Assembly: GCF_022678625.1 (NCBI RefSeq)
Contig: NZ_JALBYQ010000001.1
Coordinates: 868,001-932,000 of the forward strand
DNA length: 64,000 nucleotides
Source: Aliiroseovarius subalbicans
Lineage (GTDB): Bacteria; Pseudomonadota; Alphaproteobacteria; Rhodobacterales; Rhodobacteraceae
Reading direction: 5' to 3'
Part shown: piece after piece, positions 1,984-48,272 of the stretch
How the letters are laid out: each line of letters opens with the position of its first letter
How positions within the stretch are numbered: the stretch's first letter is position 1
Program-made: the position numbers and the translations under genes
The notes under the pieces: model-generated
What the model saw: only the letters and a program-made list of their open reading frames with translations
Database searches by the model: none
What the model was told of the DNA's origin: nothing

Positions 1984-2670
1984 TCAGCCCGCCAACCAAC
2001 CGGGCAAATGGCCGATATCAGGCAGGACCACGTCGGCGAATGGGGTCAAAACCTCGGCCGGGGCCAGGCCGGTCAGCACGCCGACCACCTGCATCCCCGC
2101 CGCACGACCTGCGTGCAGGTCGTGCAGGCTGTCGCCCACCATAACCACGCGCGAAGGGTCCAATGCCAGGGCATCCACAAAGCCCAGGCACATGCCAGGC
2201 CCCGGCTTGGCCCCGTGGCCGCTGTCATAGCCCGCGATGAAGTCGAACCTGTCGGTCACCCCCGCCGCCGCCAGATGTGCCCGTGCGGGCGCCTCGGCGT
2301 CGTTGGTGGCCACGCCCAGCTTCAGCCCCAGCGCGCGCAGACCGTCCAGAAACGGGGCCAGCGCCACCGCCTCGGCCTGGGGCGCGTTCGCGGCCTCGTC
2401 ATTGATGAGGGTTTCAAGCGCGACCGGGTCGAGGTCGACATGCGGCGTCAGCGCCTCGACCACTTCGCCCGGCGTGCCCGCGATGACGATTGAGCCCGGA
2501 TCGAACGCATTCGCCGCATAATCATAGCCGATTGCGGCCCCGATTGCCGTGGCGCGCGCGACGTCCCGGTCACACAGCCGGTCCAAAAACGCCCGCGCCC
2601 AGGCCTCCCAGGTGGCACCGAACTGAAACAGCGTGCCGTCCTTGTCGAAAAGTATCCCGTCTGCGCGCAT
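1984..2670 (-). CDS. HAD-superfamily hydrolase, phosphoglycolate-phosphatase-like
   Basis: A 228-residue haloacid-dehalogenase fold phosphatase. Motif I is FDKDGT near residue 9 (nucleophile and acid/base aspartates), motif II is the GVATND segment, motif III the lysine of GAKPGPGM, and motif IV GDSLHD. The helical cap between motifs I and II places it with Gph-type phosphatases acting on small phosphate esters; the substrate cannot be told from sequence. It is divergent from the marR-dehalogenase pair, with 87 bp between starts, and sits upstream of the methyltransferase gene on the same strand. Despite the family name it is not a carbon-halogen hydrolase candidate, because the DxDGT motif marks phosphatases. 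Confidence 0.85.
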   Translation of the reverse strand: MRADGILFDKDGTLFQFGATWEAWARAFLDRLCDRDVARATAIGAAIGYDYAANAFDPGSIVIAGTPGEVVEALTPHVDLDPVALETLINDEAANAPQAEAVALAPFLDGLRALGLKLGVATNDAEAPARAHLAAAGVTDRFDFIAGYDSGHGAKPGPGMCLGFVDALALDPSRVVMVGDSLHDLHAGRAAGMQVVGVLTGLAPAEVLTPFADVVLPDIGHLPGWLAG

Positions 2671-2742
2671 CCTGGCCCCTCCTGTCTGTGTCCGGCCCAG
2701 CCATAGCGCAAAATGGGCTGGTTGACAGGGGCGGAAATTTGA

Positions 2743-2755
2743 TTGACATTGTCAA
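2743..2755. promoter_or_regulatory. Perfect 13-bp palindrome, candidate MarR operator
   Basis: TTGACA and its reverse complement TGTCAA are separated by one T and end two bases before the marR ATG at 2758. A second TTGACA-like half (gttgacag) lies at 2721-2728. MarR proteins bind short palindromes in their own promoters, so autoregulation, possibly also of the divergent HAD gene, is inferred. TTGACA could alternatively be a promoter -35 box for a transcript starting inside marR. Confidence 0.4.
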
Positions 2756-2757
2756 CC

Positions 2758-3213
2758 ATGTCACCCCGCCCACCCTATCGCCTGCATGATGCCATCGGCT
2801 ACCAGCTGACGGTCACTGCGCGGATGCAGGAACGCCGGTTCGAGGCGCAGCTGAAAACGCTCGACCTGACACGGATCACCTGGTGCGTGCTTCTGGCGGC
2901 CCAGGACGAAGGCCTGTGCCACCCGTCCGACATCGCCGCCTTCATCGGCATCGACCGCACCGCCACGTCGCGCGCTTTGCGCCAAATGGAGGGCGCCGGA
3001 CTGATCACGCGGGGGCTTGGTGACAACGACCGGCGCACCACCCGTGTCACCCTGACCGATCTGGGCCGCGCCCGACTGGACCAGGCCGTACCAATGGCGC
3101 TGGCCAGTCGCAATGCCACTGAAACTCAGCTGACCCCACAGGAATTGGCAGACCTACGCCGCCTGCTGACCAAACTGCGCGCGGGCGACGACGCCCCGTT
3201 GACCAAGCTTTGA
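2758..3213 (+). CDS. MarR-family transcriptional regulator
   Basis: A 151-residue winged-helix regulator. The HTH is around residues 52-90 (HPSDIAAFIGIDRTATSRAL) and is followed by the wing DNDRRTTRVTLTDLGRA, with flanking helices for dimerisation. The ATG at 2758 is preferred over an in-frame TTG at 2743 that lies inside the palindrome. It is followed after 13 bp by the dehalogenase gene, so the two are almost certainly one transcript. MarR regulators usually sense small phenolic or aromatic ligands; control of the dehalogenase by its halogenated substrate is the obvious inference but is not shown by the sequence. Confidence 0.88.
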   Translation: MSPRPPYRLHDAIGYQLTVTARMQERRFEAQLKTLDLTRITWCVLLAAQDEGLCHPSDIAAFIGIDRTATSRALRQMEGAGLITRGLGDNDRRTTRVTLTDLGRARLDQAVPMALASRNATETQLTPQELADLRRLLTKLRAGDDAPLTKL

Positions 3214-3226
3214 AAAGGCTCTGACG

Positions 3227-6200
3227 ATGACCAAGCTCTTCTCCTACCGCAATCGCGCGCCGCATCTGGGCCCCTACCCGCTTGAGGCTTTGCCGCGTGT
3301 GGATCACCCGACCGGGTTGGAACAGCTGGCGCCGATGCCCAGCCTCGATTTTCACCGCGCGGATGAGCCCCTGTCGATCGTGAACGCGATGCAGGAGTAT
3401 CAGGCGATGCTGGACGCCACCCGCGAAGGCTTGGTGAAACGTGAACGGGGCGTGATCCCGTCCGACCCGATGGAGCGCGCCAATCATCTGAAATCATTCG
3501 GTTATTATTGTGACGCGGCACAGGTTGGCATTTGCGAAATCCCGACCTCGGCGTGGTTGGAAACCCCCATGAAAAACCCCGACGTGGACCGGTTGGCGCA
3601 AAAGATCGAAACGATGCAGGTCAAGACCTATGCCGCCGGGGTCGACATGATCATGGCGGGGCTGCGCGAAAGCCTGCGCAAGCCGCCCGAAGATTGCCGC
3701 CACCACACGCACGCCCTGGTGTTCCTCTATGACTTCCCCCGCGATCCGGGCGCAGATGAGGTTGGCGCCGAGTGGATTGGCGACGCGCAGCAGCACCGCG
3801 CCTGCCTGCGCGGCATGGAGACCTCGGTCACCCTGGCCAATTACATCCGCTCGCTGGGCTGGGACGCGCGCGCACATTCCGCCGTCGCCTCGGACATCCA
3901 CCTGGATCAGATGGCAGTGGCCGCGGGTCTGGCCATTATCGACGGCGACGCCGCCGTGAACCCGTTCCACGGTCGCCGCTTTGGCCTGTCCGTCGTCACC
4001 ACCACACTGGAGCTTTCACCGGACAAGCCCCTGGCCCAAAACGCAAAACCGCCCGCGTCCTGGCGCAACAGCTTGGGACGTCATGCGCGGACCATGCGCA
4101 ACGCGGACCCGTTCGACAAACGACGCTTCACCGACGGTCCGCACCCGTTTGAACGCCTGAAACGGGTCGCGGACACCACGACCTATATCGACAAGCCCAA
4201 CGTCGCCCGCGTGCCCAAACGCGCCAACATGTTCGCGCGGTCCTTGTTCGGCGATCTTGGCAAACAGGCGCAGGAGGGGTCGAAGAACGGCAATTACGTG
4301 CGCAAATCCGCCGCCGCCTTCGCCTTCCGACCCTCGCTGGGCGCCTTCATCCTGTTGCAGGACGGGGATGCGGCAAAGGTGCATCCCTCCACGCATGATC
4401 CAGCGCGCAATGCCGCCAACATCAAGGCTGCGCTGTATTTCCTGGGCGTCGATGCGGTGGGCCTGTCGGCCTGCCCGGACTGGGCCTATTATTCCCACGA
4501 CGCGATCGGCGACCCGATCACGCCTTACCACAAGAACGCGATTTCGATGATCGTCGATCAGGGCCATGAAACGATGGAGGGTGCCTCGGGCGACGACTGG
4601 ATCGCCTGCGCCCAATCGATGCGCGCCTATCTGCGGTTTTCGCTGCTGGGCGGTGTGCTGGCGCAACATCTGCGCGGGCTGGGCTATACCGCGCGGGTGC
4701 ATTCGGTGATGGATGACGAGGTGCTTCATCCACCGCTTCTGCTGTTGTCCGGGTTGGGCGAGGTCAGCCGGATCGGCGAGGTGATCCTCAACCCCTACCT
4801 TGGCCCACGCCTGAAATCCGGTGTTGTCACCACCAACATGGAAATGACCCACGACAGGCCGATAGACTTTGGCCTGCAGGCATTTTGTGAGGCGTGCAAC
4901 AAATGCGCGCGCGAATGCCCCTCGGGCGCCATCACCGCCGGGCCGAAGCTCATGTTCAACGGCTACGAGACCTGGAAATCCGACAGCCAGAAATGCACCA
5001 CCTACCGCGTCAGTCAAAAGAACGGCGCGATGTGCGGGCGCTGCATGAAAACCTGCCCGTGGAATCTGGAAGGCCTGTTTGCCGAGGCGCCGTTTCGCTG
5101 GGCCGCGATGAAGGCACCGGCGCTGGCCAAGCCATTGGCAAAACTGGATGATATGCTGGGCAACGGTGGCATCAACCCGGTGAAGACCTGGTGGTGGGAT
5201 CTGGAGATGGTGGACGACGGGCCCTATGCGCCCCCGGACCATCCGGTGAACCGGCGCGGGCTGTCGAAAGACCTGGATTTGCGGTTCGAGGACCAGACGC
5301 TTGCCGTCTATCCCGCCCCCTTGGCCCCGCCGCCCTACAACTGGCCGTTTCCGGCGGATCGCGAGGCCGGGATCGCGGCCTATGAGGCGATGATCGACGC
5401 GGAGGAGCACAAGCGCCGCCGCGCCGCCGGGCAGCCGCCTGAACACGTCTACACCGCCGACCAGGGCGACGCGCCGGTGATCCAGACGGTGATTTCCAAG
5501 GTCGAGCGGATGACGCCAGATGTGACCAAATACACCTTCGCCCGCCCCGATGGCACCCCCCTGCCCGAAGCGACCGCAGGCGCGCATATCGACGTGGTCG
5601 TGGCGCCCGAGTTTTTCCGGCAGTATTCCCTGTGCGGCGATCCAGCGGACCGGTCCAGCTATCAGATCGCGGTGCTGCGCGAGGACGCGGGGCGTGGTGG
5701 CTCAAAACTGATGCACCGGATATTTGAAGAGGGCCGGCGCGTGTTTGTCTCCCACCCGATCAACCACTTTCCCTTGGCGGAAGAGGCCGCAGTCACCATG
5801 CTGATGGGCGGCGGCATCGGTGTGACGCCGATGATCGCGATGGCACACCGGCTCCACGCACTGGGGCGCGATTTCGCGCTCCACTATTCCTGCTCGTCCC
5901 GCGCGGCGGCGGGGTTTCTGGACGACCTGGCAGCGGTGCCCTGGGCGGACAAGGTGCACCTGCATGTCTCGGACGAAGGCAGCCGCGCCGACCTCGCTGG
6001 GCTGTTGGCCTATGAGACCGGGCGGCATGTCTATACCTGCGGGCCTGAGGTCTACATGGCGGCTGTCATGGACGCAGCCGAGGCGGGCGGATACCCCGAA
6101 GAGGCGCGGCATCTGGAGTATTTCAGCGTGCCGGAACAGCCCGAGTATGAAAACCACGATTTCACCCTGCGGCTGGCCAAATCCGGACGCGAGGTGAAGG

Positions 6201-41353: not shown

Positions 41354-42175
41354 TTAGACGCGGCTCTTCGTGCAGCCATCCAGGGTCTGGTCCATTTCAA
41401 CCGAAGGGTGCTCGCAGCCCGCCTCGCCCACAACCTTGGCCGGCACGCCGGCGACGGTCACGTGGGCCGGAATGTCCTTCAACACCACGGATCCTGCAGC
41501 GATCCGGGTGCAGCAGCCGACGCGGATGTTGCCAAGCACCTTGGCGCCCGCGCCAATCAAAACGCCGTCTTCGATCTTCGGATGACGGTCCTCATCTTCC
41601 TTGCCAGTGCCGCCCAAAGTGACGGAATGCAGCATCGAGACATTGTCGCCGACTACCGCTGTTTCACCGATAACGATGGAATGGGCGTGGTCGATCATGA
41701 TGCCCTTGCCGATGCGCGCGCCGGGGTGAATGTCGATGCCGTAAACCTCCGAGCACCGCATCTGGATGAAATAGGACAGATCCTTTCGCCCTACCCGCCA
41801 CAGGTGATGCGCCAGACGATAGGCCTGCATCGCCTGGAACCCTTTGAAATAAAGGATCGGCTGCAACATGCGGTGACACGCCGGGTCCCGGTCCACGATC
41901 GCGGCCAGATCGGCGCGCGCGGCCTCGGACAGGCAGGGATCAGCGGCATAGGCTTCATCCGCAATCTCGCGCAAAAGCACCATGCTCATTTCGTTCGAGC
42001 TGAGCTTGGCGGCGAAGCGATAAGACAGCGCCTTTTCCAGCGTTTTGTGGTGCAGCACACAAGCGCCGACCAGCCCCCCCAGAAGCGGCTCTTCGGCAAC
42101 GGCGGCCTTCGCCTCGTCGGTGATGCGGGCCCAAACAGGGTCCAGTTCGGTCAGATGTGCGCGTGCTTCGGCCAT
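41354..42175 (-). CDS. cysE: Serine O-acetyltransferase
   Basis: A 273-residue enzyme making O-acetylserine from serine and acetyl-CoA, the first step of cysteine synthesis. It has an N-terminal helical domain and a left-handed beta-helix of hexapeptide repeats. GIDIHPGARIGKGIMIDHAHSIVIGE carries the catalytic Asp/His, and HSVTLGGTGKEDEDRHPKIED the loop before GAGAKVLGNI. Length and motifs match the standard CysE. It sits next to the GTA flank, an arrangement I recall from other Rhodobacterales. Confidence 0.96.
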   Translation of the reverse strand: MAEARAHLTELDPVWARITDEAKAAVAEEPLLGGLVGACVLHHKTLEKALSYRFAAKLSSNEMSMVLLREIADEAYAADPCLSEAARADLAAIVDRDPACHRMLQPILYFKGFQAMQAYRLAHHLWRVGRKDLSYFIQMRCSEVYGIDIHPGARIGKGIMIDHAHSIVIGETAVVGDNVSMLHSVTLGGTGKEDEDRHPKIEDGVLIGAGAKVLGNIRVGCCTRIAAGSVVLKDIPAHVTVAGVPAKVVGEAGCEHPSVEMDQTLDGCTKSRV

Positions 42176-42601: not shown

Positions 42602-42650
42602 CTGGTTTTTCTAGAAAAACCAGCAAGTCTCGAATTTTCTAGAAAATTCG
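42601..42650. terminator. Twin palindromes at the convergent gene ends
   Basis: Two perfect palindromes are separated by six bases: 24 bp at 42601-42624 (GCTGGTTTTTCT and its complement) and 20 bp at 42631-42650 (CGAATTTTCT and its complement). Both centre on TCTAGA. The first contains the last base of the DksA-like stop codon and the second contains the stop codon of the converging gene. Each arm supplies a T-run on either strand, so they probably act as a bidirectional terminator. Confidence 0.7.
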
Positions 42651-42941
42651 GCGCGCCGCCGTGTTTGACCGCGCCAGCAGCGCGTCAAACACCAACGCCA
42701 TGCAGGCGCAATACTCCGGATCGTCCAAAAAGGGTTCGCGCGCGCGCGGCCGCGCCATCGCCACCGCCATCAGGCTGCCATTTCCCCAGACCGGGTGGGC
42801 GCAACCTGTCTTGCGGCGGTAGCTGTCGGCGGCTTCAGCCTCAGCCAACATCCGGCGCATCAACCCGGCGCGGGCGGCGGTCTTGGCGTGCAAAAGTGCA
42901 CACCCCGCCGCCGCCACGTCGCCTGGCAGAACAGGACGCAT
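42639..42941 (-). CDS. Small conserved protein following GTA gp15
   Basis: 100 residues, predicted soluble, with a conserved-looking AGCALLHAKTAARAGLMRRML start and CAHPVWGNGSLMAVAM centre; two cysteine-containing segments but no catalytic motif. Its ATG follows the megatron stop by one base (TGACATG), so it is translated with the GTA genes. I recall a gene of this size after gp15 in other Rhodobacterales GTA clusters, but no function is known. Its stop codon lies inside a perfect palindrome. Confidence 0.7.
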   Translation of the reverse strand: MRPVLPGDVAAAGCALLHAKTAARAGLMRRMLAEAEAADSYRRKTGCAHPVWGNGSLMAVAMARPRAREPFLDDPEYCACMALVFDALLARSNTAARRIF

Positions 42942-42942
42942 G

Positions 42943-45453
42943 TCAGGCCCCCACGCTCAGGCGGCGGAACGGGCCGGCGCCGAACTGGTCGGACACCTGC
43001 GCCACGTCGATGTTGAACGGTGCCACCGCCCCGTCGTTACCCTGCGCCGTGGCCGAATAGGTCCAGGCGGGTGCGCTGACGGTTTCCTCGCGCAGCAGAA
43101 CCTCGCCATCCAGAACGCGCACGACATAGGTCTCAGCAGCTTCGCCCAGCGGCACCTCGACCCCAGCCCAACTGTCGCCGTCGGTGCGGGTGCGGCGGAT
43201 CCAGCCGACCGCCAAATCCCCGGCCCCATCAAGCTCGGCTTGCAGATGCACAGGCGCATAGGGGCGCAGACCGATCCCGTCGAAGGCATGCACCTGATGG
43301 GCATAGACCGGGTCATTATAGGTCCGCGAGGCCGGTCCAACCCGGTAATGACGCAGCAGGCCACGTTCTGATGCAGTCAGCGCGATCTGCTCAGGCGTGC
43401 CGTTCAGCAGAACGACATAGCTTCCCGGCGGCCATTGGTCGGGCATGATCGCGTCACTGCCCTGTTGCCCGCGCAGGCGGGTTGTCAGGTCATAAACACC
43501 CTCTTCGACCAAGGTCGCATTAGTGAACTGGAACACTTCCCAGTTTGCCGTCGAGCCGTCACCGATCACCGCCACATTGGCACCGTTCAGCACCTCATCG
43601 GCGCTGACCGAGGTCAGCTCACCCGACGCCACCCGCACACGCAGCGCGGGTCCGCGGTCAATCAGGCCAGGTTCGGCCCGGAACAGCGTGTTTTCCGTCA
43701 TCCCGATGACGGACGCGGCGGGCAGCAGCCGGTTCAGCACATAGGCGCTGTCTTGCGGGGCAGACCAGGCCGCGACCGACCCCGGCCAGGGTGTCGCGGT
43801 CACCGCCAGATGCGGTGCATGTTCGACCTCGTCGCCTTTCAAAAGCGGTAGGTCCATGAACAGTGGCAGAACCGGCACGGCGGGGGTGAAGGGCTTCGGG
43901 CGCACCGTGACCTCGACCGCATCCGAGGGCGTGTAAAGCCCCGGTTCGATGCGCACCGCCTGGATCATGCTGACCCCGGCCTGTTCCACGTGGTCCAGGC
44001 GGTAAAGCTCGGTGCCCGCGTCGGTTTCAATCTCGACCACGTCGCCGGCCATGTTGGCTATGGCCGAGGGCGGCAGAGAAAACCGCGCTTGATCACGCGC
44101 CACCCGGCTTTCCGCCAGCCAGCGTTCGACAATCGCGCGGCCTTCGCTTTGCAAGAGCACCAGCGGCATTTCCGATTGCGACACCGCGCGGCTGACCTCG
44201 TCGGGAAAGACCGCTTCGGAGGAGCGCACTTCGTAGTCGCCTTCCGCCTCGACAAAGTTCAACCGGATGCGCCCGGCGATTTCGGCCGAAGGCGCGCGGC
44301 TCAGCGACAGGGTGCCGTCCTGCTCTTCGGTGATGGCCAGGCGCGCGGGGTCAAGCACGCGGTCTGTGCGCCCATTGCGCGAGGTAAAGACCAGCGTGCC
44401 TTCCCGCTCGGCCGCCTCAAACCCATAAGCCAGCATGAGCGGTTGCAGCGCGGCCCGGCCCGAGCTGACTTGCCCGACCGAATAACCACGCACAAGGCCG
44501 TGCAGTTCGGACACGTCATAGGCGGTCACACCAGAGCGGTCGCAGATTTCGGACACGACCGAGGCCAGCGACCGCGCCGAGGTGCGCCCGTTCAGCCAAT
44601 GCCCGTGGGCGTAGTTTTCGCCATCGCTCCACAGCGCCGTATTGCCGGGGAAATACGGGAAGGGACGCGCGTCCCAGGCCCAGACATGGGCGCGCGCCAT
44701 GTCGATCATTTGCACGCCGGTTTCGCTGTCCGTCACGTTATGCGCCGGGTTACCCCAGTATTGATACATCGCGCGCAGATATTGCATCTGGATCAGGTCA
44801 TCACGCCGCCCGTTCGAGTAATTCGGCAGGCTGCTTTCCGAGCTTTTCGGGTCCAGGAACTTGTTGGGCTGGTTGGTGCCCTTGTCCACGGCGCCGCAGC
44901 CCAGTTCATCGACCCAGGCGGCATCGAACTGCGGCCCGCGCAGCGCCTCGGGTTCATGGGCGGAAAAAACCTGCGCGATCGCGCCGTTGGGCCAGAGCAG
45001 CCTTTTGCGCCCGGCCTCCCAGACTGGGCGGCGATCGGGTGGTGAGCAGGCCAGGATGCCACTGTCACCAAACACCATGACCTCGCGGACCTGATCAAAG
45101 GTTTCGCCCACCAAGGCCACGCGCGCCGACCGGCCCGGGTCCAGCGGACCCGCCCCCTCGACCTCGGCCCGCACCCATTCGGATCCCGCGCGTGTTTTAC
45201 CTGCGCCGCGCCCACCCATGATGACCCATGTGCGCCAATTGCCTTCGGGCGGCAGCTGGTGCGGTAGCGCCCAAAACTCGAACAGATAAGGCAGCGCGCT
45301 CAACGCGCCGTCACTCAGGCTGTTCAGGAACTCCTCCTGCACCTCCGATGTCGCGCAGGCGAGCCAGTCTGCGCCCGATCTCATCGCGTGCTGCGACAAG
45401 GTCAAGCTCTCGTCCGGCCGTGTTGCCGGGTGCTGTTCCACGGGCTTGGTCAA
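42943..45453 (-). CDS. In-frame chimera: GTA large terminase N-part fused to C-terminal half of GTA tail megatron (gp15)
   Basis: About 836 residues from two GTA genes. Residues about 1-181 are the large terminase ATPase: ALPYLFEFWALPHQLPPEG, Walker A VIMGGRGAGKT and the Walker B region QFDAAWVDEL. At that point (codons at about 44899-44913) the sequence becomes gp15: CGAVDKGTNQPNKFLDPKSS and ARPFPYFPG, from the GTA TIM-barrel and tail domains, running to the normal gp15 end. The terminase nuclease domain, portal, protease, capsid, head-tail genes and the N-terminal half of gp15 are missing. The frame is open throughout. Start TTG 45453 has AAAGGA upstream; ATG 45384 is an alternative. DNA packaging is not possible with this product. 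Confidence 0.88.
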   Translation of the reverse strand: MTKPVEQHPATRPDESLTLSQHAMRSGADWLACATSEVQEEFLNSLSDGALSALPYLFEFWALPHQLPPEGNWRTWVIMGGRGAGKTRAGSEWVRAEVEGAGPLDPGRSARVALVGETFDQVREVMVFGDSGILACSPPDRRPVWEAGRKRLLWPNGAIAQVFSAHEPEALRGPQFDAAWVDELGCGAVDKGTNQPNKFLDPKSSESSLPNYSNGRRDDLIQMQYLRAMYQYWGNPAHNVTDSETGVQMIDMARAHVWAWDARPFPYFPGNTALWSDGENYAHGHWLNGRTSARSLASVVSEICDRSGVTAYDVSELHGLVRGYSVGQVSSGRAALQPLMLAYGFEAAEREGTLVFTSRNGRTDRVLDPARLAITEEQDGTLSLSRAPSAEIAGRIRLNFVEAEGDYEVRSSEAVFPDEVSRAVSQSEMPLVLLQSEGRAIVERWLAESRVARDQARFSLPPSAIANMAGDVVEIETDAGTELYRLDHVEQAGVSMIQAVRIEPGLYTPSDAVEVTVRPKPFTPAVPVLPLFMDLPLLKGDEVEHAPHLAVTATPWPGSVAAWSAPQDSAYVLNRLLPAASVIGMTENTLFRAEPGLIDRGPALRVRVASGELTSVSADEVLNGANVAVIGDGSTANWEVFQFTNATLVEEGVYDLTTRLRGQQGSDAIMPDQWPPGSYVVLLNGTPEQIALTASERGLLRHYRVGPASRTYNDPVYAHQVHAFDGIGLRPYAPVHLQAELDGAGDLAVGWIRRTRTDGDSWAGVEVPLGEAAETYVVRVLDGEVLLREETVSAPAWTYSATAQGNDGAVAPFNIDVAQVSDQFGAGPFRRLSVGA

Positions 45454-45682
45454 CTCGTTTCCTTTCGTCAAATAGGCTTTGCATCGCCTTGCGTGCCGCG
45501 TCGGCCTTCTTCGAGACCTCAGGCACCGTGTCGAAGGCGCCAGCATCCAGGTCATCCAGGACCCGTTGCAGCGCCTGCAAAGCTGAAATGAAATGTTTCT
45601 CCACAAGCTCCAGAACCAATTCCGGAGCCATATCCTTCCCTGGGGGCGTCTTGTTTGTCATGCGTATGGCTTTGCCTCTCAT
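45311..45682 (-). CDS. GTA gene 1 product (small-terminase-like)
   Basis: 123 residues, equivalent by position and character to the first gene of the Rhodobacter capsulatus GTA cluster, proposed to be the small terminase. It is helical, with ELVEKHFISALQALQRVLDDL, then KKADAARKAMQSLFDERKRVD and EIGRRLARLRD coiled segments. ATG 45682 is preceded by GGGAAG; ATG 45661 is an alternative. Its 3' end overlaps the 5' end of the terminase chimera in another frame, the normal GTA arrangement. Apparently intact, so the deletion in this locus begins downstream of it. Confidence 0.75.
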   Translation of the reverse strand: MRGKAIRMTNKTPPGKDMAPELVLELVEKHFISALQALQRVLDDLDAGAFDTVPEVSKKADAARKAMQSLFDERKRVDQARGTAPGNTAGRELDLVAARDEIGRRLARLRDIGGAGGVPEQPE

Positions 45683-45858: not shown

Positions 45859-47010
45859 CTACTGGTTTGCCCGCTCCGCTTCGATCGCACGCCATTTTGC
45901 GACGTTGTCGTTGTGCTCGGCCAGGGTGGCGGCGAAAGCGTGACCGCCGGTGCCATCTGCAACGAAAAACAGGTAATCCGTGCTATCGGGGTTCAACGCT
46001 GCCTCGATCGCCGCCGGACCTGGGTTGGCAATCGGCGTCGGCGGCAGGCCCGAAATCACATAGGTGTTGTAAGGCGTTTCACGGCGCAGTTCGCTCTGGC
46101 GCAGGCCACGACCCAAAGCGCCCTGCCCGTTGGTGATGCCATAGATCACCGTCGGGTCCGTCTGCAGGCGCATGCCCTGGTTCAGGCGGTTCACAAAGAC
46201 GCTGGCGACCTGACGCCGTTCGGCCGCCACGCCGGTTTCCTTTTCGACGATCGAAGCCATGATCAGCGCCTGTTCGGGCGTGTCATAGGGCAGACCCTCG
46301 GCCCGGTTTTGCCACGCCTCGGCCAACCGCTTTTCCTGCACCGCCACCATCTGGGCCAGCAGGTCGCCTCGATCCGCCCCTGGGCGCACCTCATAGCTGT
46401 CAGGCGCCAGGCTGCCTTCGGCGGGCACCCCGTCCACGTCACCGGTCAGGAACTCGGCCGCTTTCAGCGCGTCGACGATCTGCCAGGACGTGGCACCCTC
46501 AGCCAGCGCAATTCGGTAACGTGTGTCACCCTCGCCGCGCAGCCGGGTGTAATCCTCAGGCACGTCATCGCCCGGTGCAAATTCGGCCTTCACCACGAAG
46601 CGCTGGGTGGCAGGGTCTAGTTCTCGGACCTGGATTTCACTGGCCAGAACACCGATGCGATACACAATCTCGGTGCCGCAGGTCGAGGCGCCGCCACGGG
46701 TGACGATGTCCACGATCTCCACCATCGAAGCGCCTTCGGGCACCAGAAACGACCCAGCTTTCAACAGCCGCGTCTTGTCGGTGTATTGCGCACCCATGCG
46801 CAGGATCGCAGCAGAACTGACTGCGCCTTGATCCGCCAGGCGATCACTAACCCGGTTGAAAGTCGTGCCGCTTTCCACTTTCAGGCAGATCGCGACCTCC
46901 AGCGGGCCGGGCTGTTCATACTGGCGCTTGCCCCATGCAATCACGCCACCCGCTGCGATCAGGATCACGACGAACAGGGACAGGGCGTTTGACGCGATGT
47001 GCCGCCACAT
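45859..47010 (-). CDS. mltG: Endolytic murein transglycosylase MltG
   Basis: 383 residues with an N-terminal membrane helix (LSLFVVILIAAGGVIAW), a LysM-like segment (SGTTFNRVSDRLADQGAV) and the YceG catalytic domain. The active-site Glu is in IMASIVEKETGVAAER, followed by VASVFVNRLNQGMRLQTDPTVIYG and ISGLPPTPIANPG. It cuts nascent glycan strands and sets their length. Its ATG overlaps the fabF stop (ATGA), so it is the last gene of the fab operon, as is common in alphaproteobacteria. Confidence 0.96.
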   Translation of the reverse strand: MWRHIASNALSLFVVILIAAGGVIAWGKRQYEQPGPLEVAICLKVESGTTFNRVSDRLADQGAVSSAAILRMGAQYTDKTRLLKAGSFLVPEGASMVEIVDIVTRGGASTCGTEIVYRIGVLASEIQVRELDPATQRFVVKAEFAPGDDVPEDYTRLRGEGDTRYRIALAEGATSWQIVDALKAAEFLTGDVDGVPAEGSLAPDSYEVRPGADRGDLLAQMVAVQEKRLAEAWQNRAEGLPYDTPEQALIMASIVEKETGVAAERRQVASVFVNRLNQGMRLQTDPTVIYGITNGQGALGRGLRQSELRRETPYNTYVISGLPPTPIANPGPAAIEAALNPDSTDYLFFVADGTGGHAFAATLAEHNDNVAKWRAIEAERANQ

Positions 47011-48272
47011 CAATCGGTGACCTTGCCCAGAACCAGGGACGCATTGGTGCCGCCAAAGCCAAAGCTGTTGGACAGTGCCACGTTGATCTCGCGCTCTTCC
47101 TTGGCATTGGCCGCCAGGCTCAGCTTGGGCTCAACCGCCGGATTGTCCAGGTTGATCGTCGGCGGGGCCACCTGGTCGCGCAGCGCCAGGATGCAAAAGA
47201 TCGCCTCGACCGCTCCAGCAGCGCCCAGAAGGTGGCCGATCGACGATTTGGTCGACGACATGGTCGCCGTGGAGGCCGCGTCACCCAGCAGACGCTCAAC
47301 CGCTGCCAGCTCAATCGTGTCAGCCATCGTCGAGGTGCCGTGCGCGTTGATGTAATCCACCGCGTCAGGCTCCAGCCCGGCGTGTTTCAACGCCGCTTTC
47401 ATCGCGCGGAAGCCACCGTCGCCGTCCTCGGACGGGGCGGTGATGTGATAGGCATCGCCGGACAGGCCATAGCCCAGAACCTCGGCATAAATCTTGGCGC
47501 CGCGCGCCTTGGCATGTTCGTATTCTTCTAACACGACAACGCCCGCGCCCTCGCCCATCACGAAGCCGTCGCGGTCTGCGTCATAGGGCCGGCTGGCGGT
47601 TTCCGGGCTGTCGGCGCGTTTCGTCGACAGCGCCTTGCAGGCGTTGAACCCGGCAATGCCAATCTCGCTGATCGCGGTTTCCGCGCCGCCGGCCACCATC
47701 ACGTCAGCATCACCATGCTGGATCAGCCGGCTGGCGTCGCCAATGGCATGGGCACCGGTGGAACAGGCGGTCACGACCGCGTGGTTCGGACCTTTGAAAC
47801 CAAAACGGATTGACACCTGACCCGAGATCAGGTTGATCAGCGATCCGGGGATGAAGAAGGGCGACACACGGCGCGGTCCACGTTCGTGGATCAGCACAGC
47901 GGTCTCCGCGATGGAATTCAGCCCGCCGATGCCCGACCCGATCATCACACCGGTGCGCTCACGACCTTCGTCGTCCTCGGGCATCCAGCCTGAATCCTTC
48001 ACCGCCATGTCGGCGGCAGCCATGCCAAACAGGATGAACTCATCCACCTTGCGGCGTTCCTTGGCGGCCATCCAGTCGTCGGGGTTGAACGTGCCGGCGT
48101 TGCCGTCACCGTAAGGGACTTCGCAAGCGTAATTGGTGGTCACACGGCTGGCGTCGAACTTGGTGATCGGGCCTGCGCCCGACTTGCCCGCAAGAATGCG
48201 TTCCCAGGTTTCCTCGACCCCGCATGCCAGCGGTGACACCATGCCCAGACCCGTAATGACCACTCGACGCAT
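47010..48272 (-). CDS. fabF: 3-oxoacyl-[acyl-carrier-protein] synthase II
   Basis: A 420-residue condensing enzyme that elongates acyl-ACP with malonyl-ACP. The catalytic Cys is in VTACSTGAHAIGDA, and the two active-site His in NAHGTSTMADT and SSIGHLLGAAGAVE. The N-terminal RRVVITGLGMVSPLACG is typical. It lies between the rhodanese-HTH gene (85 bp upstream) and mltG (overlapping), within the fabD-fabG-acpP-fabF order. Confidence 0.97.
   Translation of the reverse strand: MRRVVITGLGMVSPLACGVEETWERILAGKSGAGPITKFDASRVTTNYACEVPYGDGNAGTFNPDDWMAAKERRKVDEFILFGMAAADMAVKDSGWMPEDDEGRERTGVMIGSGIGGLNSIAETAVLIHERGPRRVSPFFIPGSLINLISGQVSIRFGFKGPNHAVVTACSTGAHAIGDASRLIQHGDADVMVAGGAETAISEIGIAGFNACKALSTKRADSPETASRPYDADRDGFVMGEGAGVVVLEEYEHAKARGAKIYAEVLGYGLSGDAYHITAPSEDGDGGFRAMKAALKHAGLEPDAVDYINAHGTSTMADTIELAAVERLLGDAASTATMSSTKSSIGHLLGAAGAVEAIFCILALRDQVAPPTINLDNPAVEPKLSLAANAKEEREINVALSNSFGFGGTNASLVLGKVTD

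Follow-up and report, generated by a model that had tools for sequence, protein, structure and literature searches.

The same gene fusion, in which the large terminase of a gene transfer agent (GTA) is joined at one particular codon to the C-terminal half of the GTA megatron gp15 (terminase AWxD to gp15 E-x-GC), is present in Aliiroseovarius subalbicans and in 21 other species of the Rhodobacteraceae, and phylogenetic comparison of fused and intact loci shows, at the level of sequence, that it arose independently many times. In each case an RcGTA-type locus would have lost ∼11 kb, from the codon for the Walker-B glutamate of the terminase to the codon for the WFTE glutamate in the TIM barrel of gp15.

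In the window, the 64,000-nucleotide stretch of the A. subalbicans genome that was analyzed, the fused gene occupies positions 42943..45453 on the minus strand as one uninterrupted frame, from a TTG start at 45453 to a TGA stop at 42943-42945, and encodes 836 residues. The first-pass annotation had read this gene as a single frame lacking any stop or frameshift that begins as a GTA large terminase and continues as the C-terminal half of gp15, and domain matches bear out that reading. The terminase part (44908..45453, minus strand), identified by domain and motif matches, carries GGRGAGKT and the strand QFDAAWVD(E), which we take from knowledge of the family to be Walker A and Walker B, respectively. 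With residues numbered from the codon at 45450, so that the TTG start adds one, the terminase ATPase half comprises residues 1-182 and the remainder is gp15. Pfam places Terminase_6N at residues 77-183, followed by GTA_TIM (the last third alone, profile positions 204-299 of 299), Phage-tail_3 and Rcc01698_C, and beyond residue 183 gp15 families alone match in Pfam and NCBIfam, with no terminase C-terminal nuclease domain among them. The protein thus has both motifs of a terminase ATPase (GGRGAGKT and AWVDE) but is not a full-length GTA megatron, as the NCBIfam model GTA_megatron (NF048004) scores 781.1 bits, below its cut-off of 800, and is covered at positions 639-1298 of 1299 rather than over the whole profile.

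Profile and PDB matches (the latter to residues 609-1304 of the RcGTA megatron, 6tba) assign to the gp15 part (42943..44907, minus strand) the end of the TIM-barrel/peripheral domain, the central (baseplate hub) domain and the fibre-binding domain. Compared with the GTA megatron (Rcc01698), the fusion is therefore alike over the C-terminal 660 residues, whereas the terminase ATPase half stands in place of the iris/penetration domain, the adhesin domain and most of the peripheral/TIM domain, according to the domain limits in the accessible portion of PMC7296036. Locating the breakpoint, a check proposed in the first-pass annotation, placed the join within GAT/GAA (D-E; 44905..44910, minus strand), between 44908 and 44907, with an ambiguity that arises from the shared GA.

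The surroundings are those of the RcGTA head-tail cluster. Upstream of the fusion lie mltG (45859..47013, minus strand) and a gp1-like ORF (45311..45682, minus strand) that overlaps the start of the fusion and is assigned to the GTA small terminase position by its location and by weak similarity (55% to the corresponding ORF of genome G368; no Pfam or NCBIfam match). Directly downstream is a DUF7742 gene found by profile match (42639..42941, minus strand), and then cysE (41354..42175, minus strand); the names mltG and cysE are those that we presume from knowledge of the family. By tblastn, the 21 other fusion loci have matches to mltG in 20 cases, to cysE in 20, to the DUF7742 gene, again downstream, in 11, and to the gp1-like ORF in 12 (27-55% identity), and at the remaining nine loci the upstream ORF shows, as judged by eye, a gp1-type tail (LDLxxAR-like). 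Hence the flanks, the gp1 position, the ends of the terminase and megatron and the activator gene gafA are as in the RcGTA cluster, while the fusion loci lack everything from the portal gene to gp14 together with half of each end gene, and have one gene where RcGTA has a separate terminase and gp15.

The A. subalbicans genome itself (3.53 Mb, 15 contigs, 99.16% complete) contains a DUF6456 (gafA) match with a 421-aa frame, and together with the synteny of the locus this identifies it as RcGTA-type. The only Phage-tail_3 match in the genome is the fusion, and searches of the whole assembly with Phage_capsid (PF05065) and Phage_portal (PF04860) gave no match, so the strain is not expected to make GTA particles, as had been predicted for this locus at the outset. 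These searches also bear on whether an intact cluster was simply collapsed during assembly. The possibility is negligible, since the same fusion is seen in independent assemblies, including a genome in a single contig (G457), and since no capsid or portal family match occurs in so complete a genome.

To describe the recurrence we use the codes G### for genomes and L### for loci. A first search of 394 genomes of the family, about one per genus, gave at least 16 with a junction-spanning match, that of A. subalbicans included, in a sampling that under-counts other types of collapse. A second draw of 394 genomes (≥97% complete, E up to 1e-50) contained 15 fusions, three of them new, at a threshold that would miss a fusion as divergent as that of G354. 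Within genera, four fusions were present among 19 genomes of the G121 genus and one among seven of the G199 genus, and searches of the genera of G087 and G096 gave no fusion beyond those two themselves. A scan of named genomes added the fusion of Thalassovita aquimarina KMM 8518, which is distinct in sequence from every coded one. The codon at which the terminase motif PQF-x-x-AW-x-D passes into gp15 E-x-GC is identical in position in all 22 species, and, because the query was the window's own sequence, fusions with other junctions were harder to find. The most divergent fusion (L053 of G354, positions 2474-4966) is 57% identical to that of the window in its terminase part and 40% in its gp15 part, and despite this divergence it is an open frame of 831 aa with Walker A and Walker B.

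This recurrence changes what can be concluded from the A. subalbicans locus, which the first-pass annotation had explained by a single deletion and treated as an isolated event. One deletion of ∼11 kb does account for this particular RcGTA-type locus but not for the phenomenon as a whole, given the same-codon fusion in 21 other species. That the gene is the decaying remnant of a one-off, recent deletion would be in keeping with its intact frame, with the existence of intact sister loci (L022 and the locus of G368) and with the broken state of three of the 21 checkable frames, but we consider this highly improbable because the recurrence of the junction refutes it as a full account.

The independence of the fusions was examined on five trees. 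The gp15-half tree (84 rows, 22 fusions) needs 17 changes between fused and intact labels, at least 14 of them forced by starred branches, and an earlier tree of 62 rows needs 12, at least eight of them forced. When the two halves are combined in one tree (43 rows), all 12 changes are forced, and a single fusion clade is rejected (AU test, p = 2e-5). The flank genes MltG and CysE, which the deletion leaves untouched, give a tree of 36 rows with 11 changes and at least 10 forced, and the poorly resolved terminase-half tree (61 rows) likewise needs 11, with just two forced. In theory a label change may also mark a regain, but the return of 11 kb is far less probable than its loss. The rows of all five trees were chosen and are enriched in fusions. 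The 62- and 84-row trees leave out L001, L002, L047 (another fusion), L029 and L030 (partial), L016 (intact G023) and the duplicates L003, L004 and L006, and the 84-row and later half trees also omit duplicate loci, L088 (partial) and the second gp15-like copies L089-L092, L108 and L109.

Four of the trees show weak clustering of the fusion labels, with 24 (62-row), 49 (gp15-half), 60 (joint) and 165 (flank) of 500 shuffles giving a value as low, so that most events look like tips, and the scatter of these tips suggests from the trees that many fusion lineages are young. For the joint tree, the flank tree and that of the gp15 half, the weak clustering also leaves long-term maintenance of the fusion as no more than a possibility. 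Clustering is strong on the terminase-half tree, where none of 500 shuffles gave as low a value, as would be the case if some fusions were older and shared. Sister fusions such as those of G096 and G234, which have the rare P167Y in common, may on this basis derive from one event.

An identical codon in so many species could also be accounted for if one ancestral fusion allele, which at 2.5 kb could be packaged by a GTA, had spread between species by transfer and homologous recombination in its flanks. The short length of fusion alleles relative to intact clusters would bias transfer toward loss, and over the last 60 aligned bases of the terminase side another fusion is the closer sequence in eight of 17 cases, equal in six and worse in three, although several sister terminases are missing from this comparison. 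On the gp15 side (alignment bases 60-120), however, an intact row is the best match for 15 of 17 fusions, where intact rows are also more numerous. Moreover, identity between the fusion of G457 and the intact locus of G507 is 98.5% on one side of a 10,997-bp deletion and 97.5% on the other, with one base of difference in the 60 bp that flank the junction on each side, and this near-identity largely refutes a single transferred allele. The fusion of G087 similarly has in common with its intact sister G010 the residues on both sides of the junction (DGAW on the left and TEMGC on the right). With no visible donor tract in G457 or G087, transfer is very unlikely in those two, and as a general explanation it merits almost no weight. 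Junction-adjacent residues are shared with an intact sister in two further pairs, namely G490 and G016 (WCD) and G394 and G012 (WSD).

Short matching segments coding for DEL had been put forward in the first-pass annotation as the probable ends of the deletion. That proposal fails as a general explanation. At the intact G507 locus, 2 bp at the junction are common to both ends, and 124,735 of 468,861 in-frame terminase-gp15 codon pairs, about a quarter, share at least as much, while over 30 bp 42% of in-frame pairs are as similar as the junction, so homology does not explain the site. Among the eleven intact loci measured, ten have 2-4 bp at the junction, and on these grounds a homology hot spot was rejected as the general cause. 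The exception is G006 with 8 bp, which only 716 of 476,321 in-frame pairs equal, and homology may therefore help in some lineages. The codon that follows the junction glutamate varies among the fusions (TAT, TAC, CTG, CTC, TTG, ATC, TTC or ATG), and third bases are hardly more conserved near the junction than elsewhere (0.77 compared to 0.73, and 0.70 compared to 0.64). In these alignments, what is constant at the junction is the protein context, not the DNA. A perfect 7-bp inverted repeat (GGCCGCA/TGCGGCC) with a 6-base loop was seen by eye in the terminase of G457 (L115/L246), ending nine bases before the shared GA, and it is imperfect in the window and in G507. The V-to-A change in AWVDE was considered as an adaptation that followed fusion and was dropped, as intact terminases of two genera carry the same changes.

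A junction constant in protein but not in DNA points to selection for the exact fusion protein, which is the explanation that we favor and to which we give about an even chance of being correct. It is favored over a mechanism that removes 11 kb with codon precision at a high rate, such that the in-frame product is a by-product with no need of a function; the candidates would be a site-specific recombinase or a hot spot for illegitimate recombination driven by a topoisomerase or by DNA structure. Such a mechanism, which we regard as possible but doubtful, would explain why the junction shows zero variation in the 22 fusions found, where selection should have left some variety, and a match of 2-4 bp at ten of the eleven intact loci would suit an enzyme with a short core. 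The many apparently young tip events, with four in one genus of 19 genomes, are also in its favor. The three broken frames of the 21 that could be checked count against selection. The DNA around both sites, however, differs by lineage, with third bases hardly more conserved, no symmetry is visible around the core by eye, and the reciprocal product was not found in viral contigs, where two pattern matches were both to unrelated sequence.

The terminase glutamate at the junction is the one that, in our understanding of the family, follows the Walker-B aspartate, and the gp15 glutamate is the invariant E of WFTE (E241 of alignment A3), within a predicted strand at 237-244. A second invariant gp15 glutamate, in IGSE (E58), comes after strand 52-57, and we liken the arrangement of E58 and E241 to a 4/7-type glycosidase barrel. 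The junction is in these models an in-register exchange between two strand glutamates, although a hybrid domain in register finds no support from AlphaFold2, where residues 1-290 of the fusion are of low confidence (shallow alignment) and later blocks have means of mostly 63-94 with dips to 40. In the intact control WFTE is inside strand 237-244, and the model is poor just beyond.

Evidence for constraint on the fusions fits both maintenance and youth. None of the 22 shows any change in Walker A (GGRGAGKTRAG) or in RGPQF..AW.DE. At 67 sites that are invariant in 125 intact terminases the fusions have a mean of 1.23 deviations (n = 22, with Thalassovita scored over 38 positions) and out-of-sample intact genes 1.2 (n = 10), hence no difference; invariant sites were defined on intact rows with an identity of 55% or more for the terminase and 45% or more for gp15. 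The dN/dS test suggested at the outset for each half (NG86) gave 0.09-0.38 in five fusion pairs and 0.12-0.25 in intact pairs, with dS often near saturation; the pair G121-G499 supplies both extremes, and G096-G234, G109-G154 and G499-G512 lie at 0.14-0.27. These values fit a fusion that is kept, but a very recent origin of all the fusions would predict low dN/dS and unrelaxed sites just as well. There is likewise no clear difference between fusions and intact genes in T/C distance ratios (p 0.15). The joint presence of the rare residues R358L and R122L in G161 and G394 was rejected as a special feature, as these are lineage traits that both occur in the intact G012. Of the 21 frames that could be checked 18 are open (a further one, in G156, ends at a contig edge), and the broken ones have a frameshift in Thalassovita, a stop in G329 and a frameshift in G072. 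A 2.5-kb frame under no selection would be expected to be interrupted soon, which would argue against simple decay. Hence, for the statement in the first-pass annotation that the intact frame is either recent or kept, there is evidence on both sides.

In the accessible parts of PMC6363796 and PMC9638019 gafA is described as an activator of GTA genes. The gene (DUF6456) is present in all 21 fusion genomes tested and in all 20 of the intact genomes chosen, compared to four of 12 genomes that lack any match to terminase or gp15, and to three of four with other types of collapse. In the tested genomes with broken fusions, G329 and G072, the gafA frames are 198 and 300 aa, and in the other 19 fusion genomes they are at least 376 aa, an association that was spotted after the fact and is to be read with the similarly short frame (245 aa) of the intact G010. 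With gafA and the ORF at the gp1 position retained, conditions that would switch on GTA genes probably still lead to production of the fusion, to judge from gene content.

Other forms of collapse and other collections were also encountered. L047 (G019, positions 2378-4222) holds a different in-frame terminase-gp15 fusion, a single 615-aa frame in which terminase residues 10-65 continue into gp15 from the position of residue 329 and Walker A is lost. Collapsed GTA loci with no fusion are L046 (G004), L044 (G213) and L045 (G014), in which a shortened gp15 frame lies 0.2-5 kb from a terminase frame, the latter split in G014; gafA contains a stop in G004 and has no match in G213, which is 64% complete. 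The IMG/VR viral collection commonly contains relatives of these GTA genes. Among the matches listed there, a relative of the terminase half is encoded by 594 of 600 stretches (L131-L210), and a relative of the gp15 half by 27 of 32 (L211-L237). Two fusion patterns gave no match in viral contigs, and the 14 plasmids and 159 phages that gave matches all fall short of 80% coverage of the junction query. Similar terminase genes are present on large Paracoccus plasmids (1.5-2.2 Mb; H1-H5), four of the five with no annotated feature.

Recurrent fusion has precedents. In-frame lacI-lacZ fusions that form by short-homology deletions have been isolated repeatedly at the same place, a hot spot with homology at 14 of 17 bp, whereas the GTA fusions are natural, extend over 11 kb and have 2-4 bp at most of the loci measured. 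TRIM5-CypA is a case of parallel domain capture in which the same kind of fusion protein arose more than once, and by comparison the GTA fusion recurs many more times and with codon precision, is made by deletion inside a single locus, and has no known function. In the portions of the GTA literature covered by our search, no description of a terminase-gp15 fusion was found.

The fused product keeps the ATP-binding half of the terminase with Walker A and Walker B, drops the nuclease, and retains the central hub-like and fibre-binding domains, and with the iris/penetration and adhesin domains replaced no particle could form. GTAs kill their producers, and, if selection for the exact protein is the cause, fusion lineages would be GTA non-producers that escape producer lysis; the fusion may further interfere with related particles or with phage tails. 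In the modeling of PMC6209664, as far as the accessible text goes, GTA-negative cells that still take up DNA invade producers, which would give an advantage to loss but leaves the junction unexplained. As a tentative proposal, and one that we hold as rather less likely than not to be correct in full, the Rhodobacteraceae repeatedly turn the GTA locus, by a single mutation that is precise to the codon, into a useful GafA-controlled protein that combines a terminase ATPase with a baseplate hub, for example for GTA cheating or phage-tail interference, with the junction fixed because the Walker B and WFTE strands, each with a glutamate of catalytic type, can be swapped in register.

The repetition of the same fusion at the same codon suggests that either evolution favors this exact product or something cuts at this exact place. 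The G457 and G507 loci, nearly identical but differing in the fusion, allow both readings to be tested at once. How GTAs come to be maintained or lost is an open question, and here one route of loss is repeated to the codon with gafA kept and the fused gene open. The finding is either a rare natural example of gene fusion that is highly predictable, or a sign that an unknown process makes deletions with codon precision.
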